Made by a program: the position numbers and the translations under genes. 64,000 nucleotides of DNA from an uncultured Cohaesibacter sp. (GTDB lineage Bacteria > Pseudomonadota > Alphaproteobacteria > Rhizobiales > Cohaesibacteraceae): assembly GCF_963676275.1 (NCBI RefSeq), contig NZ_OY781091.1, positions 496,001 to 560,000 of the forward strand. The letters are read 5' to 3'. The notes beneath the pieces were generated by a model, which worked only from the letters and a program-made list of their open reading frames with translations, made no database searches and was not told the origin of the DNA. Each line of letters opens with the position of its first letter. Within the stretch, counting starts at the first letter, position 1. Of the stretch, positions 16,442 through 34,695 are shown piece after piece.

Positions 16442-16495
16442 GGACTGCCGCGAGGAAATCCCGAAGAGTTGGGAGGGAGATCCCGGCGGCAGTCC
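16442..16495 (-). terminator. Stem-loop between dctP and dctQ (attenuator-like)
   Basis: The arms GGACTGCCGC (16442-16451) and GCGGCAGTCC (16486-16495) are exact complements around a 34-nt interior. There is no long T-run, so it may be an RNA-stabilising hairpin or partial terminator. That would let the binding-protein mRNA outnumber the permease mRNA. Confidence 0.55.
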
Positions 16496-16508
16496 TAAAA
16501 CGCTGGGC

Positions 16509-17489: not shown

Positions 17490-17521
17490 CTGTTCGTCCT
17501 CCCAGACGGATTTGTAAGGGG

Positions 17522-18226
17522 TCAGGTGTCCCCGGGTTCAAAGAGTTCAGGTTTTTCTTGTGCGATTTGAGGAAGATCCTTGAGGATGCGCCTCAGGTGA
17601 GACCGCATGGCGGCCTCTGCCGCATCGGCATCGTTGGCAGCGATCGCCGAGACGATGGCGATGTGCTGCTCCAACAATTTCTCGGTATTATGTTCAACCA
17701 GCGAGAGATAGCGCACCCGGTCCATCTGGGCTTTCTGGCTTTGCACCACGGCCCAGGCGCCCATTTTGTGCGCCGCTTCTGCCAATGTCTGGTGGAACAA
17801 TTCGTCAAGGACGATGAAAGCATCCGGGTCATCTGATTCGACGGCCTTTCTTTGATGCTCCATCTGGCTGGAAAGCTCGCGATCAACCGCATCATCATGG
17901 GCCTGGGCAACCAGCCGCACGATGTCGGCCTCGATTGCCTCGCGTACGAAGCGGGCATCCATGACAGCAGGGGGAGAGATTTTCTTCACGAAGCTGCCGC
18001 GGTTGGGCAGGATGTCGAGCAGGCCGTCATTGGCCAGCTTGATGAAGGCTTCCCGCACCGGCTGACGCGAAACGGCAAAGGCCGCGGCCCATTCCGCTTC
18101 CGACATGCGGCTCCCCGGTGCCAATTGATTGCGGATGATCTGCTGGCGCAAAATGGCATGAATCTGCGGCGCTACCGGCAAACGCAGATCAATTTCCTGT
18201 TGCTCCAACCCATCAAGCAGTGACAT
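17522..18226 (-). CDS. GntR-family (FCD) regulator of the hexuronate module
   Basis: The 234-residue protein has a winged helix-turn-helix (MSEAEWAAAFAVSRQPVREA, about residues 43-62, followed by FIKLANDGLLDILPNRGSFV) and a helical FCD effector domain. It contains the metal-ligand pattern of FCD proteins (ARFVREAIEADIV, DELFHQTLAEAAH, late EQHIAIVSAI and RSHLRRIL). It is the first gene of the TRAP/uxuB operon and divergent from uxuA, so it probably senses a hexuronate or mannonate-pathway intermediate, like UxuR/ExuR. GGGAGGA before 18226 fixes the start; an in-frame extension up to 18334 would overlap the promoter. Confidence 0.9.
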   Translation of the reverse strand: MSLLDGLEQQEIDLRLPVAPQIHAILRQQIIRNQLAPGSRMSEAEWAAAFAVSRQPVREAFIKLANDGLLDILPNRGSFVKKISPPAVMDARFVREAIEADIVRLVAQAHDDAVDRELSSQMEHQRKAVESDDPDAFIVLDELFHQTLAEAAHKMGAWAVVQSQKAQMDRVRYLSLVEHNTEKLLEQHIAIVSAIAANDADAAEAAMRSHLRRILKDLPQIAQEKPELFEPGDT

Positions 18227-18249
18227 AAGCTTTCCTCCCGTTGCAAACC

Positions 18250-18279
18250 ACCATACCGGCATACTGCCATACTTGTCAA
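18250..18279 (-). promoter_or_regulatory. Promoter of the regulator-TRAP-uxuB operon
   Basis: On the minus strand TTGACA (18274-18279) is separated by 18 bp from TATGGT (18250-18255), placing initiation about 17 bp before the gene start. Three CATAC pentamers at 18252, 18260 and 18268, exactly 8 bp apart, overlap this promoter and may belong to an operator. Confidence 0.55.
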
Positions 18280-18385
18280 CCAGTCTTGGCTGTGATAGAG
18301 ATTGATATAACGCGGCAACCCGGCGCAGAGGCATTGAACCATATGGGCATTGCAGACGTCTCTAAAACGTCCGGTTACGCCAGCC

Positions 18386-18450
18386 ACATGTTCCAGACAC
18401 ATGTTTCAGTCATGTGTTTCCATCACATGTTTCTGGCCCGTGTTTCTGGT
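18386..18450. repeat. Five-unit 13-bp tandem repeat upstream of uxuA
   Basis: Units start at 18386, 18399, 18412, 18425 and 18438: ACATGTTCCAGAC, ACATGTTTCAGTC, ATGTGTTTCCATC, ACATGTTTCTGGC, CCGTGTTTCTGGT. The conserved part is ACATGTTTC. The array ends 53 bp before the uxuA start, inside the divergent control region. Confidence 0.85.
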
Positions 18451-18503
18451 TTCCAGTCTCTGGAGGCGAGGTACCAAGAGAATCATAATACGGGAGACAG
18501 CGA

Positions 18504-19712
18504 ATGCGTCAGACATGGCGGTGGTTCGGTCCACAGGATCGAGTAGGGATTGAGGATATGCTGCAAGCCGGAGTGGAAGGGGTCGTCAGTGCCCTGCATC
18601 ATATCCCCACCGGCGATGTCTGGAGCCCGGAGGAAATTGCTGCGCGCCAGCAGCTTATCGCCCACAAGCGGGACGGCTCACCTTCCGGTCTGGCCTGGGA
18701 GGTTGTCGAGAGCCTGCCCGTGTCCGAAGATATCAAGAAGCAGAAGGGCAACTGGCGCACCCATATCGAGAACTACAAGCGCAGCATGCACAATCTGGCA
18801 GCGGCCGGTATCGAGGTCATTTGCTACAATTTCATGCCGGTGCTGGACTGGACGCGGACCGATCTCACCTATCGCCTGCCGACCGGTGCCACCTGCATGC
18901 GCTTTGACTTGATCGACTTTGCCGCCTTTGATCTCTTCATTCTGAAACGCAAGGGGGCCAGCGAGGACTTCCCGCCAGAGGTGATCGAAGAGGCTAGGGC
19001 GCGCTTTGACCGTCTCGATGAAGCCGGACGTGACCTGCTGGCCGGATCGATCATCTATGGCCTGCCCGGAGATGCTGAAACGCCTTCGATGGATCGGGTC
19101 CGGGCCAATCTGGCCGAATATGACAATATCTCGCAGGATCAACTGCGCCGCCATTTCGTTGCCTTTCTTGAGGAAGTAGCCCCAGTTGCCCAGACCCTCG
19201 GTCTGCGTCTTTGCTGTCACCCCGATGATCCACCCTTCGGCCTGCTTGGCCTGCCGCGGATCATGTCCACCGAGGCCGACTATAAATATCTCATGGATGC
19301 GGTCGATATTCCGGCCAATGGCATCACCCTGTGTTCGGGCTCTCTGGGCGCGCGGCCGGACAATGATCTGCCCGGCATGATGAAACGGTTTGGTGACCGG
19401 GTCCATTTCCTGCATTTGCGCAATGTCGCCCTTGAAAGCGATGCGATCAAGGGCTCTTTCTACGAGTCCGAGCATCTGGGCGGGCATGTCGATATGGTTG
19501 CCCTGATGCAGGCCGCCCTTGATGAGGAAGCCAGACGCAAGCTGGAAGGCCGCAGTGACTGGTCGATACCGATGCGCCCTGATCATGGTCTTGATATTCT
19601 GGATGACCAGAAGCGCAAGGCCCAGCCCGGCTATCCGGCCATCGGGCGCCTCAAGGGGCTTGCCGAATTGCGCGGCATCATGGTGGCCCTGCAACATGGT
19701 CAGCATGCCTGA
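18504..19712 (+). CDS. uxuA: D-mannonate dehydratase
   Basis: The 402-residue enzyme converts D-mannonate to 2-keto-3-deoxy-D-gluconate. The N-terminal MRQTWRWFGPQDRVGIEDM and GVVSALHHIPTGDVWSPEEI are diagnostic of UxuA, as are the metal-binding stretch LRLCCHPDDPPFGLLGLPRI, the CSGSLGARPDNDL loop and the C-terminal IPMRPDHGLDILDDQ. The length equals that of the family. The ATG has CGGGAG in front. It is divergent from the regulator operon and precedes a terminator, so it is probably monocistronic. Confidence 0.96.
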   Translation: MRQTWRWFGPQDRVGIEDMLQAGVEGVVSALHHIPTGDVWSPEEIAARQQLIAHKRDGSPSGLAWEVVESLPVSEDIKKQKGNWRTHIENYKRSMHNLAAAGIEVICYNFMPVLDWTRTDLTYRLPTGATCMRFDLIDFAAFDLFILKRKGASEDFPPEVIEEARARFDRLDEAGRDLLAGSIIYGLPGDAETPSMDRVRANLAEYDNISQDQLRRHFVAFLEEVAPVAQTLGLRLCCHPDDPPFGLLGLPRIMSTEADYKYLMDAVDIPANGITLCSGSLGARPDNDLPGMMKRFGDRVHFLHLRNVALESDAIKGSFYESEHLGGHVDMVALMQAALDEEARRKLEGRSDWSIPMRPDHGLDILDDQKRKAQPGYPAIGRLKGLAELRGIMVALQHGQHA

Positions 19713-19810: not shown

Positions 19811-19948
19811 ATGCGGGCGAGCCTATTTCCTTTCTCTCCTCATATTATCGTGAGAATCTCTGGTCCCTGTTGACTCTGCCCCCCGCGATACGCTCTTGTG
19901 CGGGCAAAAAAAGCGAGTGAAAACAAACCAGCAAGAAGGAAAACAATC

Positions 19949-21127
19949 GTGCCCCCGGTCGATAGCATGGAACATCACGCGTTAGGACATCTGGAGGTCG
20001 GATTTGACATTCCCGCCCGCCCCGGCATGAAAGAGTCTGAAATCCAGACCCCTTGCCTCATTCTTGACCTTGATGCCCTGGAAAATAACATCCGGAAAAT
20101 GGGAGCCTTCATCAAGGCTCATGGCATGCGCCACCGGCTGCATGCCAAGATGCACAAGTCCGTTGATATTGCACTGTTGCAGATGGAACTGGGCGGCGCT
20201 TGCGGCATTTGCTGCCAGAAGGTGTCCGAGGCGGAAGTCTTTGCCCGTGCTGGCTTTACCGATCTGCTGATCTCCAATCAGGTGCGCGATCCGCACAAGA
20301 TAGACCGCCTCGCCAGTCTGCCAAAGCTGGGCGCACGCACCATCGTCTGCCTTGATGCTCTGGACAATGTCGCCGAGCTGTCCGCAGCAGCCTACAGCCA
20401 TGAAACAGAGATTGAATGTCTTATCGAGATTGATTGCGGCGCAGGGCGTTGCGGTGTGAGCGAGCCGCAACAGGTGCTCGAACTGGCCCACGCAATCAAG
20501 GGCGCGCAGGGGCTCAGATTTACCGGGCTTCAGGCCTATCAGGGCTCGATGCAGCATCTGCCTGACTATGAACAGCGCAAGGCAAAAATCGATGCCGCTG
20601 TTGCCATGGTCCGGCAATGTCTGGCGCTGCTGCAAAGGGAAGAATTCGAATGCGACATTGTCGGTGGCGGAGGCACCGGCTCCTATTATTTTGAATCCGC
20701 CTCCGGGGTTTATAACGAGCTGCAATGCGGCTCCTATGCCTTCATGGATGCCGACTATGGCCGCATTCTGGATGAAAATGGCAGGCGCATTGATGAGGGC
20801 GAGTGGCAGAATGCACTATTCCTGCTCACATCGGTGATGAGCCATGTCAAGGCGGACCGGGCAATAGTCGATGCGGGCCTGAAGGTGCAATCGGTCGATA
20901 GCGGCCTGCCTGTCGTCTTTGGCCGTGATGATGTCACCTATCTGGAATGCTCGGACGAGCATGGCACGATTGCCGATCCGGCAGGTGTCCTGAAAATCAA
21001 TGAAAGGCTCCGCCTCGTGCCGGGGCATTGCGACCCGACCTGCAATATCCATGACTGGTATGTGGGCGTGCGTCAGGGCATCGTCGAATGCCTCTGGCCG
21101 GTCTCCGCCCGTGGCAAGGCCTTCTAG
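19949..21127 (+). CDS. D-threonine aldolase-like PLP enzyme (DSD1 family)
   Basis: The 392-residue enzyme belongs to the alanine-racemase-fold group that includes metal-dependent D-threonine aldolase, 3-hydroxy-D-aspartate aldolase and D-serine dehydratase. The PLP lysine is in HRLHAKMHKS. The glycine-rich phosphate loop is VGGGGTGSYYFE, and the metal site is PGHCDPTCNIHDWY. These enzymes cleave beta-hydroxy-D-amino acids to glycine and an aldehyde, or dehydrate them. The start is the GTG at 19949, because AAGAAGGA sits 8 bp upstream; an earlier in-frame GTG at 19898 lacks such a site. It converges on the sigma-54 activator gene with 22 bp between them. Whether it serves the neighbouring pathway is unknown. 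Confidence 0.87.
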   Translation: MPPVDSMEHHALGHLEVGFDIPARPGMKESEIQTPCLILDLDALENNIRKMGAFIKAHGMRHRLHAKMHKSVDIALLQMELGGACGICCQKVSEAEVFARAGFTDLLISNQVRDPHKIDRLASLPKLGARTIVCLDALDNVAELSAAAYSHETEIECLIEIDCGAGRCGVSEPQQVLELAHAIKGAQGLRFTGLQAYQGSMQHLPDYEQRKAKIDAAVAMVRQCLALLQREEFECDIVGGGGTGSYYFESASGVYNELQCGSYAFMDADYGRILDENGRRIDEGEWQNALFLLTSVMSHVKADRAIVDAGLKVQSVDSGLPVVFGRDDVTYLECSDEHGTIADPAGVLKINERLRLVPGHCDPTCNIHDWYVGVRQGIVECLWPVSARGKAF

Positions 21128-21149: not shown

Positions 21150-23063
21150 TTAATGCGGCAAGGTGCCTTGCGCCTTGCTGTCCTTGCCCAGCCAGCGTTT
21201 GACCGTGTTGCGATCAATCGAAAGTCGCTGCGCGGTTTTGGTGATGTTGCAATTTTCCTGCTTGAAAATCTGGTTGACCTTGGCTGCGATCATCTCGTCA
21301 AGGCTTCCCCCTTCCAGAAGGCTGTCCATTTCATCCGGACTGCCCGATATCCGCCCCATATGATGGCTTTGCGATGACAGCAGCGGCGTGTCGAAATCAT
21401 GCAGGCTTTGCAGGGTGGCAAATTTCTCGGCGCAATTCTCCAGCTCGCGCACATTGCCCGGCCAGCTATGCTGCCGCAATTCCCGCCGCAGCTTTCCCGA
21501 CAGGGGCGGAACGGGAATGGACTGCATCTTGCACGCTTTCTCCAGAAACCGGCTGAACAGAAGCTCCGGATCCCCCTTGCGTTCGCGCAAGGGCGGAATG
21601 GTCAGGTCAAGTACATTGAGGCGATAGAACAGGTCCGCTCGCAGTCTCCCGGCCCTGATGGCCTGTAGCGGATTTTTGTTGGTAGCGGCTATGATGCGCA
21701 CCTTGATCGGAATGACCTTGTTGTCACCGATCCGCATGATCTCCCCCGTTTGCAGCGCCCGCAACAGCTTGGCCTGCAAAAAGACATCCATCTCTGTCAG
21801 TTCATCAAGGAACAATGTGCCTTCATGGGCCAGTTCGAACAGGCCGATCTTGCCAGACCGCGAGGCCCCTGTAAAAGCCCCCGGCGCATAGCCGAACAAC
21901 TCGCTTTCGAGAAGATTGCCCGGCAGCGCGGCACAGTTGACCGCCACAAACGGGCCGTTGGAAAGCTTTCCCGCATTATGGATCGACTGGGCGAACAGCT
22001 CCTTGCCGGTGCCGGTTTCTCCCTCGATCATGATGTTGCTGGCCGTATGGCTGTAGAGCTGCGCCATCTCCACCAGCCGCTTCATCTCCTGACAGTGATA
22101 AAGGATATTGCTGAAGGTATATTTGGCATAAAAGCCGCTTTCGCTGAGCTTCTTGCGGATGAGATTTCCCGCATCCTGAATCTTCTGGATCGGTTGGAAG
22201 AGAATGACGGCGGCATTGTCGGAAAATTTCTCCGATGAGACAGGGATATGATCCAGCGCCAGCTTGTCGTCATGACAGGTGACCAGCATGTTGCGCACAT
22301 GGCTTTTCTTGCGGAAGGCCTTGCTGAGTTCGGGGCTGTCGAAGAAACTGGCGATCTGCGCGCCGAGCAGGTCATCTCTGGACTGGGCCAGTATCGTGCA
22401 ACCCTGCTTGTTGATTTCCTCTATCCGCCCCTCGCCATTGACCAGAACCGCACCGTCCCGCGTGCAGTCCAGAACGGTTTCGAGCTTTTTCTCGGCCATG
22501 AAATAGCGATTGAGATTCTTGTAGACCAGCATCGCGCGCTCAAAGGCGTCAACGATGGTTTCCATGCTGGATTCGATGAGATAGGCGTTAAGGCCCTTGG
22601 ATTTTGCCCATTGAAAGGCCACCGCATCGCCAATGACCACATCCGGCTTCCATTGCACCAGAGTGTCCATGCTTTCCTGAAAGCTTTCCTTCTCGCGCAA
22701 TTCGAAGCTGCGATAATTGCGCGACAGGATGGTGCAGATCGGCGAGACCAGATTGATCAGCGGCGCAAAGCCGACAATGCCGATCCGCGTTGTCTCCGTC
22801 GTCTCCTTATAGACAAAGGCGAGGGTGCGCTGAACGGAGGCTTCGACCTCGATCACCTCGACATTGAGCGCCTTGCGGATAAGGCGGGCCGTTCCACCGC
22901 GGCTGATGATGATCTTGGCCCCTTCATCCAGCGCCTGCTTGGCCGCCTTCACCCCCTGATGCAAATCGCCCAGATAGGCTTTGGCCGGATAGTTGGATGT
23001 GTCGATGATGCTCTGCGCCTTGATGCGGATCTGCTCGAACGGCGCGATAAACGCGATAACCAT
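21150..23063 (-). CDS. Sigma-54-dependent activator with PrpR-type sensor domain
   Basis: The 637-residue regulator has four parts. An N-terminal PrpR_N sensor (about 1-180) is followed by a PAS domain (about 190-300, [20 protein letters not shown]). An AAA+ ATPase then has Walker A GETGTGKE near 345, GAFTGA near 394 and Walker B GTLFLDE. A C-terminal Fis-type helix-turn-helix ([20 protein letters not shown]) ends the protein. The intact GAFTGA loop means that it can remodel sigma-54 polymerase. PrpR_N domains bind small organic acids (2-methylcitrate in PrpR). The ATG at 23063 has GGGAGAT before it; 19 extra in-frame codons upstream are unlikely to be used. It faces the sigma-54 promoter of the ABC operon. 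Confidence 0.93.
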
Positions 23064-23128
23064 GACCTGATCTCCCCCCTGGTCGGGCAGGAGTATGCGG
23101 ACCGATGAGAGGAAATGCAACGAACGGG

Positions 23129-23145
23129 TGATGCGTTATGCATCA
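23129..23145. promoter_or_regulatory. Candidate upstream activating site for the sigma-54 activator
   Basis: TGATGC-GTTAT-GCATCA is a perfect 6-5-6 inverted repeat about 90 bp upstream of the -24 element, the usual distance for an enhancer-binding-protein site. Confidence 0.5.
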
Positions 23146-23232
23146 ACAATTAGTGCAAATCAACACAGCGCCCTCTCAGGTGAATTTCTTACACCAAAAA
23201 ATAAATATCTATATTTCAATTACTTATTTCGG

Positions 23233-23248
23233 TGGCATGCGAATTGCA
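23233..23248 (+). promoter_or_regulatory. Sigma-54 (-24/-12) promoter of the Dpp-type operon
   Basis: TGGCATG-CGAA-TTGCA matches the sigma-54 consensus TGGCAYR-N4-TTGCW at every defined position. Initiation would be near 23258, giving a leader of about 59 nt before the binding-protein gene. The divergent gene encodes a sigma-54 activator. Confidence 0.85.
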
Positions 23249-23316
23249 AAATTTTCGTTAAGGCGCACCAAGAACGCCATTGCATAGAGAAAGTTGAAAT
23301 GAGAGGAGACAACTAC

Positions 23317-24936
23317 ATGAAAAAGGATCTTTTCAAAGTCCTTTTGCTCGGGCTCGCAGTGCTCGGGCTGACACCGCTGCAAGGCGGTCCGGCATCGGCC
23401 GAAGGTGGTCAGGTGCTCAACATCGCCCATCCCGTTCTGCAGCAGAACTGGTCGCCCCTTCAGGGAGGAGGACACGCAGCGCGCTGGCAATCTCTTAGCT
23501 GGGCTGCACCAATGTATTTCGACAAGGACGGCAAGCTGACCCCTTACGTTCTTTCAAGCGTCGAGTCCGATGACAGCTATGTCAACTGGATCCTGCATGT
23601 GAATCCGGATGCCGTCTGGTCTGATGGCTCCAAGATTACCGCTGAAGACGTGGTTGGCACATGGAATCTGTCCGCCCGTCCGGCAACCAAACATGCCCGC
23701 GTCAATCTGTTTCTGGGTGGCGTGGAAGGCTTCAACGATGTTGTCGTCGGCAACGCAAAGGACATGACCGGTCTGAGTATTGCGGATGAAGCAACCGTGA
23801 CCGTCAAGCTGGCCAGTGCCGATCCGATCTTTGATCAGAAAATCGCCACAGCCCTGATCGCTCCGGTCAAGATTTCTCAGGCTCAGGACGAGAATGGCAA
23901 TGAAAAATCCGACTGGTGGATGCCGCAGAATGGTGTCGTCGTTTCCGGTCCCTTCATGCCTGAAACCATGGATCTTGACCAAGGCATCCTGACCCTTGTT
24001 CCAAACCCGAATTTCTTCGGCCCGAAACCGAAACTGGAAAAAATCGTCCTGACGACGGTTGCTGATGCCAGCACTGCAACGCTGATGCTCAAGCGCGGCA
24101 CGATGGATGCCCATACCGAGCTCATCACACCAACCATCATTCAGGATCTTGGCGCAGATTTCCTTGGCGGCCCGGCACTGGCCAAAGGTCAGCAATTCTG
24201 GATCAACGCCAAGAAACCTCCAATGGATGACATCAATGTCCGCAAGGCTTTGATCATGTCGGTCAATCCTGAAGAGCTGGCTCTCGCCGCTTTCCCGGAT
24301 GGCCCCTTCACGGCAGCAAGCCAGATCCTCAACAAGGTACCCGGCGTCGATCCGGATTTTGAAAAATATCCATATGATCCCGAAGCTGCCAAGGCTGCAC
24401 TGGCCGCATCCAAATACAAGGATGCCAACCGCCTGCCGAAAATCATGTTTGTCGGTATTTCCACCCCGACCCATGAAGCCGCTGCCCAGTATATAGCTGA
24501 ACAATGGCGCAAGATCCTCGGCATTCAGGGCATCGAAATGAAACCTGCCATCGAAACCTATTCCGGCCCGGACCAGAAGAGCGTTCAGATCTTCCGTGAC
24601 GATGTCGGCACACGCGTTCCCGATGCGGTTTCCTACCTGATGGGCTCGATCCATTCGCAGTCCGGTAACGCCCGCAACAAACTGGGCGGTTACGAAAATG
24701 CCAAGATTGATGCCATGTTGGATGAAGCATCCGTCAAGGGTGTGAAGGACCCTGACCGCATCAAGCTTGCGCAGGAAGCACAGCGTCTCTTCCGTGAAGA
24801 CTGGACCTACATTCCTTACTATTACGACGTGATGTCGAAATGGGCCATGCCTTGGGTCCTCAATTTCGACAAGAATGATGACTGGCAAGTCATCGAGCCA
24901 TGGAATGTAACAATCGACGAAGCAAAACGTCCGTAA
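23317..24936 (+). CDS. Periplasmic binding protein of a peptide/opine/sugar ABC importer (SBP_bac_5)
   Basis: The 539-residue protein has a signal peptide (MKKDLFKVLLLGLAVLGL, cleavage near ASA-EG, residue 29). It shows the cluster C fold of DppA/OppA proteins (AVWSDGSKITAEDVVGTWNL, DDINVRKALIMSVNPEELAL, FREDWTYIPYYYDV). Members carry di- and oligopeptides, nickel, opines, cello-oligosaccharides or sialic acid (Haemophilus ducreyi SatA is of this family). GAGAGGAG precedes the ATG. It heads the sigma-54-driven operon and is separated from the permease genes by a hairpin. Confidence 0.92.
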   Translation: MKKDLFKVLLLGLAVLGLTPLQGGPASAEGGQVLNIAHPVLQQNWSPLQGGGHAARWQSLSWAAPMYFDKDGKLTPYVLSSVESDDSYVNWILHVNPDAVWSDGSKITAEDVVGTWNLSARPATKHARVNLFLGGVEGFNDVVVGNAKDMTGLSIADEATVTVKLASADPIFDQKIATALIAPVKISQAQDENGNEKSDWWMPQNGVVVSGPFMPETMDLDQGILTLVPNPNFFGPKPKLEKIVLTTVADASTATLMLKRGTMDAHTELITPTIIQDLGADFLGGPALAKGQQFWINAKKPPMDDINVRKALIMSVNPEELALAAFPDGPFTAASQILNKVPGVDPDFEKYPYDPEAAKAALAASKYKDANRLPKIMFVGISTPTHEAAAQYIAEQWRKILGIQGIEMKPAIETYSGPDQKSVQIFRDDVGTRVPDAVSYLMGSIHSQSGNARNKLGGYENAKIDAMLDEASVKGVKDPDRIKLAQEAQRLFREDWTYIPYYYDVMSKWAMPWVLNFDKNDDWQVIEPWNVTIDEAKRP

Positions 24937-24950
24937 AGGACGGCGAACCT

Positions 24951-24987
24951 GGACGGGTCGTGGTGGTCTCACTTCCCGTCCCTTTTT
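24951..24987 (+). terminator. Attenuator-like terminator after the binding-protein gene
   Basis: GGACGGG (24951-24957) pairs with CCCGTCC (24975-24981), followed by CTTTTT. The permease genes follow at 25013, so it probably trims rather than stops transcription. Confidence 0.65.
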
Positions 24988-25012
24988 CCCGAATTCGCAA
25001 GGATGACTTGAT

Positions 25013-25969
25013 ATGGGACGCTACATCTTATTCCGACTTCTGAAGTGGATTCCCTCGGTTTTTATTCTTCTTCTGTTGATCTACGCTCTCGTGTTCTTTG
25101 GGGCAGGCGATCCGATCAAGCTTATCTTCCTGCAGGCACCGGGCGATGTCGCCTATGATCCGGACAGAGTGGAAGCCATCAGGGATGCCGCGGGCCTGAA
25201 CCGGCCGTTTCTGGTTCAGTTCATGGATTATCTGGTCAATATCATGCACGGAAATTTCGGCAACTCGCTGGTTTCCGGTCGCTCGGTCAACTCGATGATC
25301 AGCGCAGCGCTTCCGGTAACCCTCAAACTGGGCCTTACCGCGATTTTCCTGCTCTCGGTCGTCGGCATCATTCTGGGCGTGATTGCCGCGCTCAACCAGA
25401 ACAAGCTGCTGGACAATCTCATCGTCGGCTTTGCCCTGATCGTCTGGGGCATTCCGGTCTTTGTTGCCGGTCCGCTGATCATCGTCTTTCTGGTGCTGGT
25501 CATGGATATGGACGTGCCCTATGGCTGGAGCGGTCTGCTCAGTTTCAAGGTGATCGTGCCGCTGCTGGTGCTGGGGCTCAATCCCATGGCCCTGATCATT
25601 CGTCAGGCCCGCGCCGGTGTGCTTGAAGTGCTCAGCGAAGATTATGTACGCACGGCCCGCGCCAAGGGCATTCCGCACTATCAGGTGGTGGTCAAGCATA
25701 TCATGCGGCCAGTGCTGACCCCGGTGGTCAGCCAGATCGGCCTGCTGATCATCGCCACGCTCAACAATTCCATTCTCATCGAAAAGGTCTTCGGGCTGCC
25801 CGGCCTTGGCCGTCTCACCGAAACCGCGATCAAATCCTCCGACTATCCGGTCATTCTGGCGATCGTGCTGATTTTCTCGACGGTGGTCATGGCTTCCAAC
25901 CTGCTGGTTGATATTTCCTATCCGCTGCTTGACCCCCGCGCCGCAGCCAAAAAGACAGGAGACGAATAA
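25013..25969 (+). CDS. ABC transporter permease, DppB type
   Basis: The 318-residue protein has six helices. It begins MGRYILFRLLKWIPSVFILL, the standard DppB/OppB N-terminus, and has the ATPase-docking loop DYVRTARAKGIPHYQVVVKH. It pairs with the DppC-type subunit, whose start overlaps its stop codon (TAATG). AAGGA precedes the ATG at good spacing. Confidence 0.94.
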   Translation: MGRYILFRLLKWIPSVFILLLLIYALVFFGAGDPIKLIFLQAPGDVAYDPDRVEAIRDAAGLNRPFLVQFMDYLVNIMHGNFGNSLVSGRSVNSMISAALPVTLKLGLTAIFLLSVVGIILGVIAALNQNKLLDNLIVGFALIVWGIPVFVAGPLIIVFLVLVMDMDVPYGWSGLLSFKVIVPLLVLGLNPMALIIRQARAGVLEVLSEDYVRTARAKGIPHYQVVVKHIMRPVLTPVVSQIGLLIIATLNNSILIEKVFGLPGLGRLTETAIKSSDYPVILAIVLIFSTVVMASNLLVDISYPLLDPRAAAKKTGDE

Positions 25970-26922
25970 TGACGGACAACACGCTTGATCTCCAACAGGA
26001 AGAAAAGCAATTCAGTCTGGCCAAGGATGCCTTTGACCGGCTGGTTGCCAACAAGCTCGCCTTGCTGGGCATGTTGCTGGTGCTGTTCCTGTTTTTCATC
26101 GCCATTTTCGGCCCCTATATCACGCCCTATGACTTTCTCTCGCAGGATCTCATGGCGCGCAATCAGGCGCCATCCTGGACACATTGGTTTGGCACCGATG
26201 ATCTGGGGCGCGACATCATGAGCCGGGTGATCTATGGCGCACGAACCGCCGTCATCGTGGCTTTCTCGACCACCTTGCTGAGCCTGATCATCGGCATCTT
26301 CATGGGCTCGCTGGGCGGCTATTTCGGTGGCAAGATCGACGCCTTCATCGTCTGGCTGATCGATATCACCATGTCTGTGCCATCTCTGCTGCTGGTGATC
26401 GTCATCAACGTCTCCATGAAGCCACGGCTGGTCAACTGGATGGACGAGCAGTTTCTGCTGACCGGCAATGCCTTCTACCGCAACACCATTCTGGTGGATT
26501 TCGTGCTGGTCTTCGGTTCTCTGGCGCTGATCAAATGGCCCAAGGCTGCCCGCATCATCCGCGGTCAGATCATGTCGGTGCGCAACAAGAATTATGTGCT
26601 CGCCGCCGAGGCCATTGGCGTGCCAACAGCCAAGATCGTCTGGAAATATGTCATTCCCAATTCCATCGGCCCGATCATCGTCTATATCAGCGCCGCTCTT
26701 GGGGAAGCCATGGTCTTTGAATCCTCCTTCTCCTTCCTTGGTGTCGGCGTGCGTCCTCCAATCCCCAGTTGGGGCAACATGATCTCGGACGGATTGCGCG
26801 TCTGGCAGCTCTATCCGCACATTCTTGCAGCGCCTGCCGCAGTGCTTGCGTTGGTCACCATAGCCTTCAGTTTCCTTGGCGACGGCCTCAACGATGCGCT
26901 CAACCCGCGGCAATGGAAATAG
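25969..26922 (+). CDS. ABC transporter permease, DppC type
   Basis: The 317-residue protein has a cytosolic N-terminal arm and six helices. Family features are HWFGTDDLGRDIMSRVIYGA, the docking loop NKNYVLAAEAIGVPTAKIVW, and the C-terminal SFLGDGLNDALNPRQWK. An unusually long loop between helices (about residues 143-180, MKPRLVNWMDEQFLLTGNAF) exceeds that of typical DppC and may reflect the substrate. Coupled by overlap to the preceding gene. Confidence 0.93.
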   Translation: MTDNTLDLQQEEKQFSLAKDAFDRLVANKLALLGMLLVLFLFFIAIFGPYITPYDFLSQDLMARNQAPSWTHWFGTDDLGRDIMSRVIYGARTAVIVAFSTTLLSLIIGIFMGSLGGYFGGKIDAFIVWLIDITMSVPSLLLVIVINVSMKPRLVNWMDEQFLLTGNAFYRNTILVDFVLVFGSLALIKWPKAARIIRGQIMSVRNKNYVLAAEAIGVPTAKIVWKYVIPNSIGPIIVYISAALGEAMVFESSFSFLGVGVRPPIPSWGNMISDGLRVWQLYPHILAAPAAVLALVTIAFSFLGDGLNDALNPRQWK

Positions 26923-26953
26923 AGAAACAACGAACAGCTAAAGGGAGGGCGCT

Positions 26954-27969
<1,016 letters not shown>

Positions 27970-27973
<4 letters not shown>

Positions 27974-28995
27974 CCATTGATGCCAAACAGCCTCTGGTCA
28001 AGGTGAAGAACCTTGTCAAATATTTCCCTATCAAGATCGGCGCTTTCGGAAGTGAAAAAGCGATTGTTCATGCGATCGATGATGTCAGTTTCGATATCTT
28101 CAAGGGTGAAACCCTGGGGCTCGTGGGTGAGTCCGGATGCGGCAAATCGACAACCGGCTTCACGATCCTGCAAATCTATCGCTCCACTTCCGGAAGTGTC
28201 GAATTCGAGGGGGTGGATCTGGCCTCGCTCTCCAAGGAAGAGCTACGCACCATGCGCAAGCGGGCCCAGATCGTCTTTCAGGATCCCTATTCGACCCTCA
28301 ATCCGCGCATGACCATCGGCGAGGCTCTGGCCGAACCGATGAAAGTGCATAAAATCTGCCCGGAAAAGGAAATTCCGGGCCGGATCGCCCATCTCATTCG
28401 CGATGTGGGGCTCAGCCCGAGCGTCGCCAACCGCTATCCGCATGAATTTTCCGGCGGCCAGCGCCAGAGAATCTGCATCGCAAGGGCGCTGGCCTGTGAT
28501 CCCGAATTCATCGTCTGCGATGAGCCGATCTCGGCGCTGGATGTGTCCATTCAGGCCCAGATCATCAACCTGCTGATGGATATTCAGGAGAAATACAGCC
28601 TCACCTATCTGTTCATCGCCCATGATCTGGCCGTTGTGCGCCATATCAGCGACCGGATCGCGGTGATGTATCTGGGCAAGATCATGGAGATTGCCGACAA
28701 GAAGGAGCTGTTCCAGCGTCCGCTGCATCCCTATACCAAGGCCCTGCTTTCCGCTGTGCCCGAGGCCGATCCGGACGTTGAACGCCAGCGGCAACGGGTC
28801 ATTCTCAAGGGGGATGTTTCCAACGCCATCGATCCGCCATCTGGCTGCCGGTTCCATCCGCGTTGTGCCTATGCTGCCGAGGCCTGCGCACAAGCGGTGC
28901 CCGAGCTGGAAGATCATGGCGATGGCCATCTGGTGGCCTGCCTGCGTCTGCAAGAGATCGCGCAGCAGACCAGCAAGGAACTGGAAGAGGCCTGA
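27970..28995 (+). CDS. ABC transporter ATP-binding protein, DppF type
   Basis: The 341-residue ATPase is the second of the importer. Walker A is GESGCGKST, the signature FSGGQRQRICIARAL, Walker B FIVCDEPISALD and the switch FIAHDLAVVRH. It ends with the C-terminal PSGCRFHPRCAYAAEAC motif, also cysteine-rich. Its first four bases overlap the DppD gene. It completes a five-gene importer; the sialidase-like gene follows 148 bp later on the same strand, across a hairpin-forming gap. Confidence 0.94.
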
Positions 28996-29040
28996 CCAGG
29001 CATCGGTTTCTTCCAATAGGACCAGTGAAAACAGGATGCT

Positions 29041-29071
29041 ACAGGCGCTGGCTTAGGCAGCTCTCGCCTGT
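29041..29071 (+). other. Hairpin in the gap between dppF-type and sialidase-like genes
   Basis: ACAGGCG (29041-29047) and CGCCTGT (29065-29071) are exact complements around a 17-nt loop. A T-containing stretch follows some distance later (ATCTTTATGCATTTTTG), so weak termination or mRNA processing is possible. Confidence 0.4.
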
Positions 29072-29143
29072 GCGCAAGATATCTTTATGCATTTTTGTCT
29101 GAAGCCTTGGTGACAAGGACCGATGAGCAAGTCAGGAAAAGCC

Positions 29144-30223
29144 ATGAAAATAGTTGCGAGCAGAGCGATTCCAACCCCGTGCCTGAGCAATCATGCGTCC
29201 AATCTTCTGGCGCTGGATAATGGCGATCTCCTTTGCTGCTGGTTTGGCGGCAGCATGGAAGGGTCATCGGATATCAGCATCTATCTCTCCCGCTTTGATC
29301 ATGCCGCAGGGGTCTGGAGCGAGGCGGTCAGGATGAGCGATGATGCCCAGCGCTCGGAGCAGAATCCGGCGCTCTTTCGCCATCCCTCCGGCCAGATCTG
29401 GCTGCTTTATACCGCCCAGCTGAAAACCGATCAGGGCACGGCCATCGTCCGCATGCGCCGTTCTGATGACGAGGGCAAGAGCTGGGCACCGATTGAAACC
29501 CTGTTCGACAGCGAAGGCACCTTCATCCGCCATCCACCCGTGGTCAATCCGCAAGGGCAGATCCTGTTGCCTGTCTGGTTTTCCAGCATGAAGAATGCCT
29601 TTGGCAATGACCGCTCGCTGGTGCAGATTTCCGATGATGGCGGCAATTGCTGGCACCTGCAGGAGGTTCCCGGCAGCGAGGGCTGTGTTCACATGAATAT
29701 CCTGCCCGATTGCCGCGTGGCTTTCTATCGCCGCCGCAAGGCAGACCACATTTTCCGGTCTGTCTCGGACGATGGCGGGCTGACATGGGCCCGGCCCGAA
29801 GCGACATCGCTGCCCAACAACAATTCATCCATTCAGGCAATCGGGCTTTGCGATGGGCGGCTGCTGATCATCTATAACCATATCGGTGCGGCAGGGCGCG
29901 ACTGCGAGAGCGCCGTGCCACCATGGATACAGGACAAAGAGGCCTTTCTCGCCCAGTGCGAGGTGACCGAAAATAGTGCCATCTGGGGCGTGCCGCGCAA
30001 TCCGCTGATCATTGCCAGCTCCAGAGATCTGGGCAAGAGCTGGCAGCCGGAGCTGGTGGTCGAAGACGACCCGCATCTGCTCTCGGCCCATGACAGCAAG
30101 GGCGCATTCCGTGGCGACTATTCCTATCCGTCTATCATCCAAACCTCCGATGGGCATTTGCAGATCAGCTACTCCTATCTGCGCGACTATATCAAGCATG
30201 TCACCTTGTCTATCGAGGACTAG
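29144..30223 (+). CDS. Sialidase-like (BNR-repeat) protein, cytoplasmic
   Basis: The 359-residue six-bladed propeller protein has four Asp-box-like repeats: SDDEGKSWAP, SDDGGNCWHL, SDDGGLTWAR and SSRDLGKSWQP. It belongs to the BNR_2/sialidase-like superfamily. There is no signal peptide, so it would act inside the cell on imported material, unlike secreted sialidases. The near N-terminal RAIPTPCLSNHASNLL replaces the classical RIP motif. Whether the arginine triad needed for sialic acid binding is complete cannot be settled by eye, and glycosidase or lyase activity on another acidic sugar is possible. The ATG at 29144 has AGGA six bases upstream; an in-frame ATG at 29123 is the alternative. 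It follows the importer genes and precedes a sugar-acid kinase. Confidence 0.8.
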   Translation: MKIVASRAIPTPCLSNHASNLLALDNGDLLCCWFGGSMEGSSDISIYLSRFDHAAGVWSEAVRMSDDAQRSEQNPALFRHPSGQIWLLYTAQLKTDQGTAIVRMRRSDDEGKSWAPIETLFDSEGTFIRHPPVVNPQGQILLPVWFSSMKNAFGNDRSLVQISDDGGNCWHLQEVPGSEGCVHMNILPDCRVAFYRRRKADHIFRSVSDDGGLTWARPEATSLPNNNSSIQAIGLCDGRLLIIYNHIGAAGRDCESAVPPWIQDKEAFLAQCEVTENSAIWGVPRNPLIIASSRDLGKSWQPELVVEDDPHLLSAHDSKGAFRGDYSYPSIIQTSDGHLQISYSYLRDYIKHVTLSIED

Positions 30224-30332
30224 AAAAGAGCGATCTGCCCAAGCTTCAGGAAGAGAGCAGGGGGCAGATTCGGAGAAATGGCAAAGAACCGCAGAAAACA
30301 GCAGAGAACGGCAAGGAATGTGAGGGGCAACC

Positions 30333-31595
30333 GTGAAAGAGGATCAGAAACTGGCCATCATTGCGGACGATTTTACAGGAGCGGGCGATTCCGGCGTCCA
30401 CTTCTCCCGTCTTGGCAAGCAGATCAAACTGCTTCTGCATCGCCAGTCCCTTTCTGACGCCCATCTGGTGGCGGGCAATATCTCGATCAACAGCGAAACC
30501 CGCTTTCTTCCTCCCGAGGCGGCCGCAAGGCTTGTCACAGATGTCATCGGACTGTGCCGCAGCAAGGGCTATGAACGCTTCTACAAGAAGATCGACTCCA
30601 CCATGCGCGGCAATCCCGGAGCGGAAACAGAAGCCGCTCTTGCAGCAACCGGCAAGGCGGCGGCCCTCATCTGTACCGCCATGCCCGAGACCGGGCGCAC
30701 ATGCCGGGATGGCCAGATCTATCTTTTCGGCACCCCTCTGCATCAAACCGACATCGGGCAGGATCCCTTTCACCCGCTTGCCAGATCCGACATTGCAGGC
30801 ATGATTGGCGAACAGACTGCGCTGGCAACCTGCGTCATAACGATTGATCAAATCGAAGCCGGTGAGGCGGCGCTCGACCAAATCATCGCCGACCATATCT
30901 CGGCGGGCATTCGCCTGATCATCGCAGATGCCACTTGCGAGGCGCATCTCTCCTCTCTTGCCCGGGCGGCACTGCAAAGCGATTGTCTGCCGGTCGGGGC
31001 GGGAGGATTTGCCCGCGCTCTGGCGCTTGTTTTGGCAGGCGAGGCAAAGGGCGTGCCCATTGCGAGCAGCAAAGCGCCCGAAGGCCCGTTGCTTGCCATC
31101 GTCGGCAGCCTTGCCAGACCCTCTCTCATTCAGGCTGACAGGGCAGAAGAAAGGGGCGACTATCTCAGCGTCATCCTGCCGCCCGACGCAAGGGTGGATG
31201 AGCTTGCTGCCCTGTGCCATTCACAATTGGCAGACAGGGACACAAAGGGCGGCGATATTCTGCTTCGCATGGACAACAGCTCGGTTGCGCCCCGCATCAG
31301 CAACGAGGAAGGCGCGCGCATAGCAGCACTCGTGGGGGCTGCGGCCTTCATCCTTTGCCGTGATTATCATTGCCAGACGGTGTTCAGCACGGGGGGCGAA
31401 ACGGCCATCGCAGTGGCCAATGCGCTTGGCATTCCGGCCATCGACCTTGCCGACGAACTGATGCCCGGCGTCGTGCTCGGGGCCTGTCAGGCGGGGGAAC
31501 TGGATGTCAAATGGTTCATCTCCAAGGCCGGCGGTTTCGGCAATGAAGAGGTGCTCCTCGATATCCAGTCGCACATCCGCAACCATCATCAGTAA
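30333..31595 (+). CDS. Four-carbon acid sugar kinase family protein (DUF1537/OtnK-like)
   Basis: The 420-residue kinase has the N-terminal substrate domain motif IIADDFTGAGDSGVHF and the C-terminal nucleotide-binding motifs FSTGGETAIAVANALGI and KAGGFGNEEVL. Characterised members phosphorylate D-threonate, L-threonate, D-erythronate or 3-oxo-tetronates. No tetronate dehydrogenase (PdxA2 or LtnD type) or partner aldolase is nearby, so the substrate may differ. The start is a GTG with GAGGGG upstream. It lies 109 bp behind the sialidase-like gene and 11 bp before the aldolase-family gene, so the three are probably co-transcribed. Confidence 0.88.
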   Translation: MKEDQKLAIIADDFTGAGDSGVHFSRLGKQIKLLLHRQSLSDAHLVAGNISINSETRFLPPEAAARLVTDVIGLCRSKGYERFYKKIDSTMRGNPGAETEAALAATGKAAALICTAMPETGRTCRDGQIYLFGTPLHQTDIGQDPFHPLARSDIAGMIGEQTALATCVITIDQIEAGEAALDQIIADHISAGIRLIIADATCEAHLSSLARAALQSDCLPVGAGGFARALALVLAGEAKGVPIASSKAPEGPLLAIVGSLARPSLIQADRAEERGDYLSVILPPDARVDELAALCHSQLADRDTKGGDILLRMDNSSVAPRISNEEGARIAALVGAAAFILCRDYHCQTVFSTGGETAIAVANALGIPAIDLADELMPGVVLGACQAGELDVKWFISKAGGFGNEEVLLDIQSHIRNHHQ

Positions 31596-31606
31596 AGAAG
31601 AAAGAG

Positions 31607-32581
31607 ATGGAAAATCTTCGCTCAAACAGACAGGAAAGCCCGGCCCAGCCCTCCCGGACATCTCAGATGCTCCGGACGTCGAGGATGAGCCCTCAGCCCG
31701 TCGACGGGGAGACTTTTGTTGCCCTCGTTACCTGTTTCAACAGCGATGATACGATCAACTATTCCGCACTGAGAAATCAGGTCAGGCGGCAGGTCACCTT
31801 CGGCAACAATATCCTTGTCTGCGACCTATTGGGCGATTTCACCTGCCTCACCCATGCCGAAAAGGTGCGCATCTGTGCCGAGGTGGTCGAGGAAGCCGAT
31901 GGACGGGTCAAGGTGCTGGCCAATATCGGCATGCCGTCGACCTACCAATCCATCCTGCTCGGGCGAGACATATCCGGCCTTGGGCTGAATGGTGCCACGG
32001 TGCTGGCTCCCTTTTTTGCCGATTGCGACGATGGTGATCTGCTGCTCCATTATTCCCGCGTCGCCGATGGGCTTCAGATCCCGGTCTATCTCTACAATGC
32101 GCCAGCCATAGCCCCTCGCGCGCTCGCCCCTGAAATGGTGTCCCAACTGGCCAGACATGGCAATATCAGGGGGATCAAGGATAATGGCGTCGACAGGGAA
32201 CGGGCACTTGCCTATCTGGCCATCGCCAGTGAGAGCGACGACTTTGTCTATTATACCGGTGTGGACGGGATGATATGTGAAGCGCTCGCCCATGGGGCGG
32301 CGGGATGCATGTCTGATCTGGGCAATATATTGCCCCGCACGCTGAACAATGTCTGCCTGACTTATTCAAATGGCAGTCGCGGCGAGGCGCAAAAATGGCA
32401 GTCCCTGCTCTGCGAGCTGCACACCGACCTGTCCGCACTTGGTTCCGTTGCAATGGGGGTCAAGCAACTGCTCTATCTCATGGACAACAGCGTCGGGCTC
32501 GGGCGGCACCCTTATCCGCATCTGAGCGAAGAACAACGGGCCGCCTTCTATGCGATTGTCGAGAAATACCAGATTGTCTGA
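31607..32581 (+). CDS. DHDPS/N-acetylneuraminate-lyase family protein with altered pyruvate-binding motif
   Basis: The 324-residue class I aldolase-fold protein has the Schiff-base lysine K191 (IKDNG) and the catalytic tyrosine Y163 (YLYNAP), spaced by 28 residues exactly as in E. coli DapA. However, the normally invariant GTTGE or GSTGE segment is CDLLGDF (residues 72-78): both pyruvate-binding hydroxyl residues are leucine. A pyruvate-dependent lyase may therefore have a changed donor or reaction. An N-terminal extension of about 27 residues, rich in Ser, Arg and Gln, precedes the family core; an internal ATG at 31685 would remove it but has no good ribosome-binding site. It is the last gene of the cluster and could release pyruvate or another oxo acid from a 2-keto-3-deoxy sugar acid. 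Confidence 0.83.
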   Translation: MENLRSNRQESPAQPSRTSQMLRTSRMSPQPVDGETFVALVTCFNSDDTINYSALRNQVRRQVTFGNNILVCDLLGDFTCLTHAEKVRICAEVVEEADGRVKVLANIGMPSTYQSILLGRDISGLGLNGATVLAPFFADCDDGDLLLHYSRVADGLQIPVYLYNAPAIAPRALAPEMVSQLARHGNIRGIKDNGVDRERALAYLAIASESDDFVYYTGVDGMICEALAHGAAGCMSDLGNILPRTLNNVCLTYSNGSRGEAQKWQSLLCELHTDLSALGSVAMGVKQLLYLMDNSVGLGRHPYPHLSEEQRAAFYAIVEKYQIV

Positions 32582-32748: not shown

Positions 32749-34695
32749 TCAGGATCCGGCCCGACCGATCCGGCTGACCAGAACGGCCATCAGACGCTGA
32801 TAGAGATCCGGTCCCAACACATCATCCTCAATGCCATAATCCACGCTGGGATTGTCATTGATCTCGATGATGCAAGGCCCCTTCGGAGTCTCCTTGATAT
32901 CCACGCCGTAAAAACCGTTGCCGATCAGACGGGTGCCGCGAATGGCGGTTTCGACCACGGCGGGCGGAACCGCCGAGATCGGCATGGTTTCGGAATCGCC
33001 GGACTGGATCGAGCCGTCATTCTCATATTCGTAGATTTTCCAGTTGCCGCTGACCATGTAATATTTGCAGGCATACAGCGCTTCGCCATCGAGCACGCCA
33101 ATGCGCCAGTCGAAGTCGGTCGGCATGAATTCCTGAATCATCAAGAGGTCGGTCTTGCGGAACAGCGCCTTGCTCAGATCATTCAATTCATCGCGGCTGG
33201 AAACCTTGTGTACCCCTTTGGAAAAGCAGCCATCGGGAATTTTCAGAATACCGGGAAATTCGAAATTGTCCGCCAGATCCTTGAGGCGCGGCTTGTCGAA
33301 AATGGTCGTGCGCGGTGTCAGGATCCTGTTCGATTTCAGAAGTTCGGCCAGATAGATCTTGTTGGTGCAGCACAGGATCGAATGCGGATCGTCAATGACC
33401 GGCATCCCCTCGCGCTGCGCCCTCTTGGCAAAACGGTAGGTGTGATGGTTGAGCGCTGTCGTCTCGCGGATGAACAGCGCGTCGAATTCCAGAAGGCGTC
33501 CGAAATCCTTGGCCGTGATGAATTCAGCGCGGGCATCGACTTTTTCGGCCGCCGCCGCAAAGGATTCCAGCGCCTTCTCGTCACTGGGAGGGCTTTCCTC
33601 TTCGGGATTGGCCAGAATGGCAACCACGGCAGATGGAAGCTTCTTGATGGACGGCTTGGGCAGGCTGCCCTTCAGGAAAGCCTTGAGGGCAGAAAGAAAG
33701 CGCGGCTGCTCTTCCTCGGTCAGCTTGTGAATGGCAACCGCCTCGATTTCCTTGATCTTGAATTTCGGCTCCGATTGCAGATTGATCCGGATGATCGGGC
33801 AACGGAAGAGATCGAAAGCCTTTTTGCCGACCTCGCGAAAACGCCGGTCGGCGGTGCGCCCGAAATAGACGTCGATGGCCGCAGGGAAGGTCTTGTCCAC
33901 CATGCTGTCCAGCATATGGTCAAGGCGCAGCAGGGCCTGACGGTGAATCCGCTTCCAGTTGATGTCAAGCAGGGCATCGGCCTCGGGCAGGCAGCGTTCC
34001 TTGCGCGCGTCGGCCAGAAGACTGCAATAATAACCCAGCGACAGCGGCTCATAGGAGCGCGACAGGTTGATGACGCGCCGACCGGGAACCCCGTGCTCCA
34101 GCGCCAGATATTGACGCACGGTCATGACCAGAGAACCGTTCGGTGCGGTTTCCAGATCCGTCAGGCGATCCACCAGAATGATCGGCAGGCGGGTGCGGTT
34201 GGCTGGCTTGGAGCCCTGCGGCAGATGATCGAGCATGCGGATGAGGCGGACTCCATCTGCACCATCTTCATAATAGTTGGGCAATTCGTCTTCAGGCAAA
34301 AAGCCATAATGGCGGTAGAGGCTGATCGCCTTTTCATTGTCGGCCCGTACCTCAAGCGACAGCCGGTCGCATTCCAGTTCCTTGGCAATCGCCTCCGAAC
34401 CACCCAGAAGCTGGGAACCGACGCCGCGCCCGCGGGCTTCCTCTACGACTGCGATTGAATAAAGCCGGGCAACAGACGTGCTTTCCCTGAACAGGATCAG
34501 GGCATAGCCCAGCAGGGCGCCTTCCTCGCCGATGGCGACAAGCAGGCGGGCGGAATCCGTCTTGATAAAGGAGGTAAAGGACCGGCGGCTGATCTGATCG
34601 GAGGTAAAACAGCGATCTTCCAGCGCAACAAGCTGGTCCAGATCGTCCATGTTCGCCGGGCGTATGAGAATTTGGGAGAGAGAATGAGATGACAT
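32749..34695 (-). CDS. GNAT acetyltransferase - RimK-type ATP-grasp ligase fusion
   Basis: The 648-residue protein joins three parts. Residues about 9-155 form a GNAT acetyltransferase with the acetyl-CoA loop VEEARGRGVGSQLL. Residues about 170-370 resemble the RLAN domain that precedes RimK-like ATP-grasps. Residues about 400-640 form an ATP-grasp ligase (TYRFAKRAQREGMPVIDDPH, then GCFSKGVHKVSS, the late metal site CIIEINDNPSVDYG). Such proteins ligate an amino acid or amine to a carboxylate, and the GNAT part may acetylate the substrate or product. The product is unknown. The gene stands alone; GAGG lies 7 bp before the ATG. Confidence 0.85.
   Translation of the reverse strand: MSSHSLSQILIRPANMDDLDQLVALEDRCFTSDQISRRSFTSFIKTDSARLLVAIGEEGALLGYALILFRESTSVARLYSIAVVEEARGRGVGSQLLGGSEAIAKELECDRLSLEVRADNEKAISLYRHYGFLPEDELPNYYEDGADGVRLIRMLDHLPQGSKPANRTRLPIILVDRLTDLETAPNGSLVMTVRQYLALEHGVPGRRVINLSRSYEPLSLGYYCSLLADARKERCLPEADALLDINWKRIHRQALLRLDHMLDSMVDKTFPAAIDVYFGRTADRRFREVGKKAFDLFRCPIIRINLQSEPKFKIKEIEAVAIHKLTEEEQPRFLSALKAFLKGSLPKPSIKKLPSAVVAILANPEEESPPSDEKALESFAAAAEKVDARAEFITAKDFGRLLEFDALFIRETTALNHHTYRFAKRAQREGMPVIDDPHSILCCTNKIYLAELLKSNRILTPRTTIFDKPRLKDLADNFEFPGILKIPDGCFSKGVHKVSSRDELNDLSKALFRKTDLLMIQEFMPTDFDWRIGVLDGEALYACKYYMVSGNWKIYEYENDGSIQSGDSETMPISAVPPAVVETAIRGTRLIGNGFYGVDIKETPKGPCIIEINDNPSVDYGIEDDVLGPDLYQRLMAVLVSRIGRAGS

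Follow-up and report, generated by a model that had tools for sequence, protein, structure and literature searches.

The galactarate/glucarate (gar) pathway uses the aldolase GarL, the reductase GarR and the kinase GarK. The D-threonate pathway, reportedly described by Zhang et al. in 2016, consists of DtnK, a kinase of the DUF1537 family, and PdxA2. A further related system is the GH143 hydrolase of deoxy-lyxo-2-heptulosaric acid (Dha), which we take to be BT1020 (PDB 5mqr). GH143 of Bacteroides thetaiotaomicron is a Dha hydrolase (PMC6811678). The gene cluster analyzed here lies in a 64,000-nucleotide stretch, referred to as the window, from the genome of an uncultured Cohaesibacter sp. (RefSeq assembly GCF_963676275.1; contig NZ_OY781091.1, positions 496,001–560,000), which is a single contig of 5.03 Mb. 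The cluster encodes a sigma-54 activator, a Dpp-type ABC importer, a BNR-repeat protein, a DUF1537-family kinase and a DHDPS-family protein. An earlier reading of the window (the original prediction) had proposed that an acid-sugar conjugate is taken up intact and cleaved inside the cell.

The cluster proves to be genuine; it is conserved and under selection, and its linkage with the enzymes of tetronate catabolism is very well supported by gene neighborhoods. On the present evidence, we lean slightly toward a reading in which the cluster imports a 2-keto-3-deoxy-heptulosaric acid, most likely Dha, that would be split into pyruvate and a C4 uronate and converted through D-threonate to dihydroxyacetone phosphate. 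Dha is among the least understood plant sugars. Dha is present in plant rhamnogalacturonan II (RG-II; PMC12168206) and in the scales of green algae (PMC10762512), and in a 2025 review the enzyme and the compartment of Dha synthesis are marked as unidentified or unknown (PMC12168206). Neither bacterial use of Dha beyond its release from RG-II nor the present gene set is described among the matches listed in a literature search, which did not extend to subscription literature.

Predicted tetronate enzymes accompany the BNR protein

The BNR gene was compared with its relatives at 80 named loci, which are the best 80 of 567 BNR relatives rather than a random sample and include many close relatives. 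At these loci, the BNR gene is accompanied by genes for a DHDPS-family protein (63 loci), an iron alcohol dehydrogenase (FeADH; 63 loci), a PdxA homologue (62 loci) and a separate DUF1537-family kinase (52 loci). At least three of the four are present in 60 of the 80 loci, and none in seven. A PdxA frame of more than 700 residues is found in a further 14 of the 80 loci, which are without a separate kinase, and the sole frame examined among them (L070:5861-8335) is a DUF1537 kinase fused to PdxA according to Pfam. The neighborhood families are Louvain clusters of blastp hits, one of which joins distant DHDPS types, and few of their members were scanned with Pfam or NCBIfam.

In some genomes the enzymes occur apart from the BNR gene. 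A length of 19 kb or more is reached by six of the seven empty loci, and the genomes of these six were searched with the FeADH of Pectobacterium (E 1e-45). Three Pantoea genomes and Bacillus glycinifermentans carry the DHDPS, FeADH, kinase and PdxA genes together, away from the empty BNR locus. In B. paralicheniformis (L049), the BNR locus contains only the DHDPS and FeADH genes, and a separate core is located elsewhere in the genome. Of 289 genomes drawn evenly from the class, two contain a BNR relative (E 1e-70), the window genome and one other, and the latter holds BNR, PdxA, DHDPS, FeADH, GntR and kinase genes in one stretch.

Arrangements in Pleomorphomonas and in the window genome connect the tetronate genes to the window cluster itself. 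In Pleomorphomonas diazotrophica (L143), the DHDPS, FeADH and pdxA genes are immediate neighbors of the same set of sigma-54 regulator, importer and BNR genes, with the kinase gene beyond them (L035), and in P. carboxyditropha (L144), the three genes lie ∼5 kb past the regulator. The window genome contains a second locus at ∼2.406–2.415 Mb (the 2.4-Mb locus) with genes for FeADH, TctA, DHDPS, a 2-hydroxyacid dehydrogenase, PdxA, GntR and a DUF1537 kinase. The FeADH, DHDPS, PdxA and kinase of this locus are 71, 83, 74 and 50% identical, respectively, to the products of the Tropicimonas genes that neighbor its BNR gene, and the Tropicimonas BNR protein is 69% identical to that of the window. Among 41 genomes, the FeADH gene (E 1e-80) is found in all 12 that carry BNR and in 3 of the 29 that do not. 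The tetronate-pathway partners, which the original prediction had regarded as missing, are thus present at the 2.4-Mb locus and adjoin the cluster in Pleomorphomonas.

The binding protein of the window cluster is 53–56% identical to rhizobial proteins that adjoin BNR, and its next relatives, among 40 evenly spaced rows of 1603, are ∼25% identical or less. Rare co-occurrence of the enzymes with the importer had been set beforehand as grounds for abandoning the original prediction. Instead, BNR, DHDPS, FeADH, PdxA, DUF1537 kinase and GntR genes flank the importer in all four of the rhizobial plasmid loci examined among those that encode these binding proteins. In Agrobacterium fabrum C58 and a Sinorhizobium meliloti strain, the same enzyme set lies beside another ABC importer. 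Plasmid records with a BNR relative number 311, most of them rhizobial, and many of the relatives listed are annotated as exo-alpha-sialidase. A distant BNR relative (28% identical to the Pectobacterium protein) is also encoded on a plasmid of the haloarchaeon Haladaptatus (L155), near mandelate racemase-family genes and MFS transporters; the module is not seen in the annotated stretch of that plasmid.

The PdxA of Pectobacterium matches the D-threonate-4-phosphate dehydrogenase family (NF002891) at 683.8 bits against a cut-off of 583, and its kinase matches the D-threonate kinase family at 609 bits against 450 and PDB 4xfm over nearly its whole length. The tetronate branch of the proposed route is well supported.

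A proposed route through D-threonate

In the proposed mechanism, a ligand would be sensed by the PrpR_N-type activator, which would turn on the sigma-54 promoter (step 1), and the acid would enter through the Dpp-type importer (step 2). The sialidase-fold BNR protein would release or open the acid or its conjugate, either by ketoside hydrolysis or by opening of a lactone or anhydro form (step 3). The DHDPS-family aldolase would produce pyruvate and a C4 uronate (step 4), the aldehyde of which would be reduced to D-threonate by the iron alcohol dehydrogenase (step 5). The DUF1537 kinase would generate D-threonate 4-phosphate (step 6), and the PdxA homologue would oxidize and decarboxylate this intermediate to dihydroxyacetone phosphate (step 7). 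Steps 5 and 7 would be encoded at the 2.4-Mb locus, where steps 4 and 6 probably have another copy as well. We infer the substrate, the reaction of the BNR protein, and the roles of the window kinase in step 6 and of the window DHDPS paralogue in step 4. The window kinase is proposed to be a tetronate 4-kinase.

A 2-keto-3-deoxy-heptulosaric acid is suggested as the parent compound because D-threonate, if it is the final acid, would be preceded by an alcohol dehydrogenase step and, earlier, by an aldolase of the NanA superfamily. We derive from Fischer projections that D-lyxo-heptulosarate yields D-threonate after retro-aldol cleavage and reduction, that no configuration other than lyxo and xylo leads to this product, and that the D-lyxo form is Dha. 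To our knowledge, Dha is the only natural acid of that kind with a lyxo or xylo configuration. Dha would be the best single candidate substrate, with a chance that we place at about even or a little better. The route would be redox balanced, by our reasoning, if the reductase consumes one NADH and PdxA returns one. Two other precursors were considered and rejected on reasoning of our own. Aldol cleavage of 3-deoxy-D-manno-octulosonic acid (KDO) would give D-arabinose, for which no acid-sugar kinase is needed, and ascorbate-derived L-threonate is the wrong enantiomer for D-threonate enzymes and would make the aldolase needless.

Evidence against the route and alternative readings

Several results weigh against the route through Dha and D-threonate. 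In scans at E-values near the curated cut-offs, the D-threonate families are reached by 15 of 60 PdxA proteins (E 1e-175; 58 of the 63 frames from the named loci and two others) and 10 of 46 kinases (41 of the 52 separate kinases and five others), and the remaining 45 PdxA proteins and 36 kinases fall short; other tetronates are therefore possible in other clades. The best NCBIfam match of the window kinase is D-threonate kinase (NF047819), at 224 bits and below the cut-off of 450, and the PdxA and kinase of the 2.4-Mb locus reach 294 of 583 and 115 of 450 bits, respectively. The rhizobial DHDPS proteins are only 21–23% identical to the window or 2.4-Mb types. In two Comamonas genomes with a BNR gene, the Pectobacterium FeADH search (E 1e-45) gave no match. 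The comparison within the genus is confounded by ancestry, and the non-random choice of the 80 named loci calls for similar caution. Moreover, six BNR-less clusters of DHDPS, FeADH, kinase and PdxA genes (L122:11333-12292, L169, L170, L171, L172 and L173) contain a D-2-hydroxyacid dehydrogenase gene, and the core may therefore serve another precursor; it is also possible that the dehydrogenase provides a second entry to the same core. Homologues of the dehydrogenase are encoded near BNR in Erwinia rhapontici (L086; 78% identity) and at two Comamonas loci (35–39%).

The limited number of PdxA proteins and kinases that reach the D-threonate families would fit a module that acts on another substrate, such as a different 2-keto-3-deoxy-heptulosaric acid, a lactone or a conjugate, and that leads through a tetruronate to a tetronate, which would be D-threonate in some clades and a different tetronate in others. 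Transporter usage points in the same direction. A sodium-symporter family is found at 41 of the 80 loci, the family of the window binding protein at 16 and others at the rest, and this variety (SSS, Dpp ABC, TctA and others) fits free small acids. We nevertheless consider a different substrate rather unlikely, given that the kinase and PdxA of Pectobacterium both pass the D-threonate cut-offs and that D-threonate, by our derivation, requires the lyxo or xylo configuration.

The window DHDPS-family protein is 42% identical to its 2.4-Mb paralogue. It retains the Schiff-base Lys (GIKD) and the Tyr (YNAP), and its GTxGE loop is changed to DLLGD, in agreement with the original description of the protein as atypical; the roles of these residues and of the loop are presumed to be those in DHDPS. 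The loop is GTNGD in the 2.4-Mb enzyme and DTxGD in all 10 congeners. The window protein may differ in reaction from the 2.4-Mb enzyme because GTNGD is replaced by DLLGD, and, with the GTxG loop lost, it may not be an aldolase, which also counts against the proposed route. The loop sequences would suit a window cluster that has diverged in this genus, with the kinase and the DHDPS paralogue now using another acid brought in by this transporter family and the ancestral pathway left to the 2.4-Mb locus alone. The fast yet constrained evolution of the two enzymes, and the transporter, aldolase and kinase of the 2.4-Mb locus itself, would also be accommodated. Such divergence is quite unlikely in our judgment, since the regulator, importer, BNR protein and kinase (47–48% identical to the Pleomorphomonas kinase) all have their counterparts in the Pleomorphomonas cluster, to which the core genes are adjacent, and since the single BNR match in the window genome is at the window locus.

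Structure comparison assigns the sialidase fold, with the six-bladed propeller of GH33 sialidases, to the BNR protein. By eye, the protein is without a Sec-like leader, as the original prediction had it. Asp50, Arg292 and Tyr335 are plausible sialidase catalytic residues. His190 is invariant in 63 of 63 BNR sequences. In a profile alignment with sialidases B and C, His190 falls at a Glu position and Arg203 coincides with an Arg; an alignment to another sialidase is shifted by ∼2 residues in this region. The aligned Glu is presumably catalytic in sialidases B and C, and the other catalytic roles are likewise our assumption. His24 sits where the Arg of the RIP motif is expected, as judged from structure-comparison offsets. 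The BNR protein may be without the first Arg and the Glu of sialidases, although the alignment is uncertain, and this too weighs against the proposed route. A search of 299 genomes for BNR_3 sialidases as references returned a single match over the cut-off and played no part in the comparison.

A sialic acid-type pathway, in which a sialoconjugate enters the cell, is cut by a cytoplasmic sialidase and undergoes NanA-like lysis, would account for the fold, the DHDPS-superfamily enzyme and the YhcH-family gene that lies directly 3′ of BNR in 20 of 94 loci, in Enterobacterales only (Pfam DUF386 confirmed in one), yet it is very improbable in view of the DHDPS scores far below the NanA cut-offs (101 of 281 and 76 of 382 bits), the tetronate-type kinase and PdxA in relatives, and the BNR residues thought essential that may be missing in this uncertain alignment. 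Sialic acid is accordingly ruled unlikely as the substrate by the NanA scores and the tetronate partners. The original proposal of acid-sugar uptake and cleavage is supported as to uptake and to a class I aldolase-family enzyme and a kinase acting inside the cell, and is unlikely to hold for sialic acid.

Organization, regulation and conservation of the cluster

The named proteins of the original prediction were found at their positions, and a Pfam scan of the window proteins agrees with their families (Table 1). The claim of a full Dpp-type importer is borne out by a family-5 solute-binding protein, two permeases and two oligo_HPY ATPases.

Table 1. Features of the cluster in the window
Feature	Position	Strand	Basis
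PrpR_N-PAS-sigma-54 activator, divergent	21150..23120	−	PF06506 and PF00158 over cut-off; PF13426 at 26.1 of 27 bits, just under
−24/−12 (sigma-54) promoter TGGCATGCGAATTGCA	23233..23248	+	Pattern match
Family-5 solute-binding protein, Sec-like leader	23317..24936; longest open reading frame from 23095	+	PF00496 (SBP_bac_5)
Dpp/Opp-type permease B	25013..25969	+	PF00528 (BPD_transp_1), PF19300
Dpp/Opp-type permease C	25969..26922	+	PF00528 (BPD_transp_1), PF12911
ABC ATPase, DppD/OppD type	26954..27973	+	PF00005 (ABC_tran), PF08352 (oligo_HPY)
ABC ATPase, DppF/OppF type	27970..28995	+	PF00005 (ABC_tran), PF08352 (oligo_HPY)
BNR_2 protein, sialidase fold, leaderless by eye	29123..30223	+	Pfam BNR_2, 218 bits
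DUF1537-family kinase (SBD_N/NBD_C)	30333..31595	+	PF07005/PF17042
DHDPS-family protein, diverged paralogue of the 2.4-Mb protein	31607..32581	+	PF00701, 152.8 bits

The binding protein most likely starts at the ATG that follows an AGAGGAG ribosome site and opens a Sec-like leader, because the start at 23095 falls upstream of the promoter. The true start of the regulator, judged from relatives, is probably the internal Met of MVIAFIAP. The promoter element is the sole match to the −24/−12 pattern in the window, with 0.12 matches expected in shuffles. At the sequence level, the activator domains and the element that they face make up a predicted sigma-54 activator regulon, in line with the original prediction. 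A −24/−12 element is located upstream of the binding-protein gene in all 10 congener clusters under a looser pattern, which gave no match at 16 other binding-protein loci (rhizobia, G029 and Pleomorphomonas). By eye, both Pleomorphomonas loci contain TGGCAC-N5-TTGC before the importer, in which only the last base is off the pattern. The regulator gene adjoins the cluster in 10 of 10 congeners and also in Pleomorphomonas, and a gene of its family, as defined by blastp clustering, lies next to BNR in four Bacillus loci.

The nearest named relatives found belong to Cohaesibacter, in which the BNR protein is 84% identical. The BNR gene is present in 10 of 17 congeners searched, and the whole cluster is present in all 10 that carry it. 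The permeases and ATPases are among the best-conserved parts, and sequence change is more rapid in the kinase and DHDPS than in the importer. The ratios of nonsynonymous to synonymous substitution rates (dN/dS) for the kinase and DHDPS are 0.07–0.21 over eight pairs (0.07–0.16 for DHDPS), with dS above 1 in several; the set omits the binding-protein value for the window versus L025, which stemmed from an incorrect tblastn hit. These ratios indicate constraint, consistent with purifying selection on both genes, and lend no support to their decay.

Several other genes were noted in the window. A two-part protein with an N-terminal GNAT acetyltransferase and a C-terminal RimK-like ATP-grasp with an RLAN domain is encoded at 32749–34695 and adjoins the cluster in 8 of 10 congeners. 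Beside the regulator, an alanine racemase-fold protein (19898–21127) matches BhcC (3-hydroxy-D-aspartate aldolase) at 724.5 bits against a cut-off of 690. This gene was left out of the cluster because no match lies within 1.0–1.3 kb past the regulator in two congeners (G006 and G016). By eye, a hexuronate set (mannitol dehydrogenase-type oxidoreductase, TRAP transporter, GntR and UxuA-like mannonate dehydratase) occupies 12904–19712, just upstream, and an RND efflux pump with a membrane-fusion protein and a divergent TetR regulator occupies 6898–11990.

Comparison with known systems

We tentatively suggest, while holding it somewhat doubtful, that these genes represent an undescribed, widespread and patchily distributed Dha pathway. 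It would comprise an importer, a cytoplasmic sialidase-fold enzyme with His in place of the catalytic Glu and hence a new reaction, a heptulosarate aldolase, a D-threuronate reductase, a D-threonate kinase and a D-threonate-4-phosphate dehydrogenase, and in the Cohaesibacter group two loci would share it, with an additional aldolase of altered sequence. If so, the Dha pathway would be a physiological source of D-threonate in bacteria, with kinase and dehydrogenase families that are already curated, and the plasmid-borne BNR proteins, mostly rhizobial, would gain a function. If Dha is wrong, the linkage would still move these proteins from sialic acid to a tetronate-yielding pathway.

The cluster resembles nan catabolism in its sialidase-fold protein, its NanA-superfamily enzyme and, in Enterobacterales, the YhcH family, and it shares a Dpp-type importer with the Sat system, as the original prediction noted. 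It differs from nan catabolism in that the products appear to enter a tetronate route, the NanA cut-offs are not reached and the first Arg and the Glu may be absent from the BNR protein. The GH143 Dha hydrolase has BNR-type repeats and acts on Dha, the substrate proposed here; unlike the BNR protein, it is a bi-modular polysaccharide-degrading enzyme, and 5mqr matches the window BNR protein weakly (E 0.0022; best stretch of 47 positions). The absence of 5mqr from the 50 structure-comparison entries displayed carries no weight for or against kinship with GH143. As in the gar pathway, an aldolase would free pyruvate and the remaining uronate semialdehyde would be reduced and then phosphorylated, whereas the proposed route is one carbon longer, uses other enzyme families and places a PdxA-type step after the kinase. 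The D-threonate pathway likewise uses a kinase and a PdxA homologue to form dihydroxyacetone phosphate, with curated matches in Pectobacterium; here, a BNR protein, a DHDPS-family enzyme and an iron alcohol dehydrogenase are added, and these would derive D-threonate from a larger acid.

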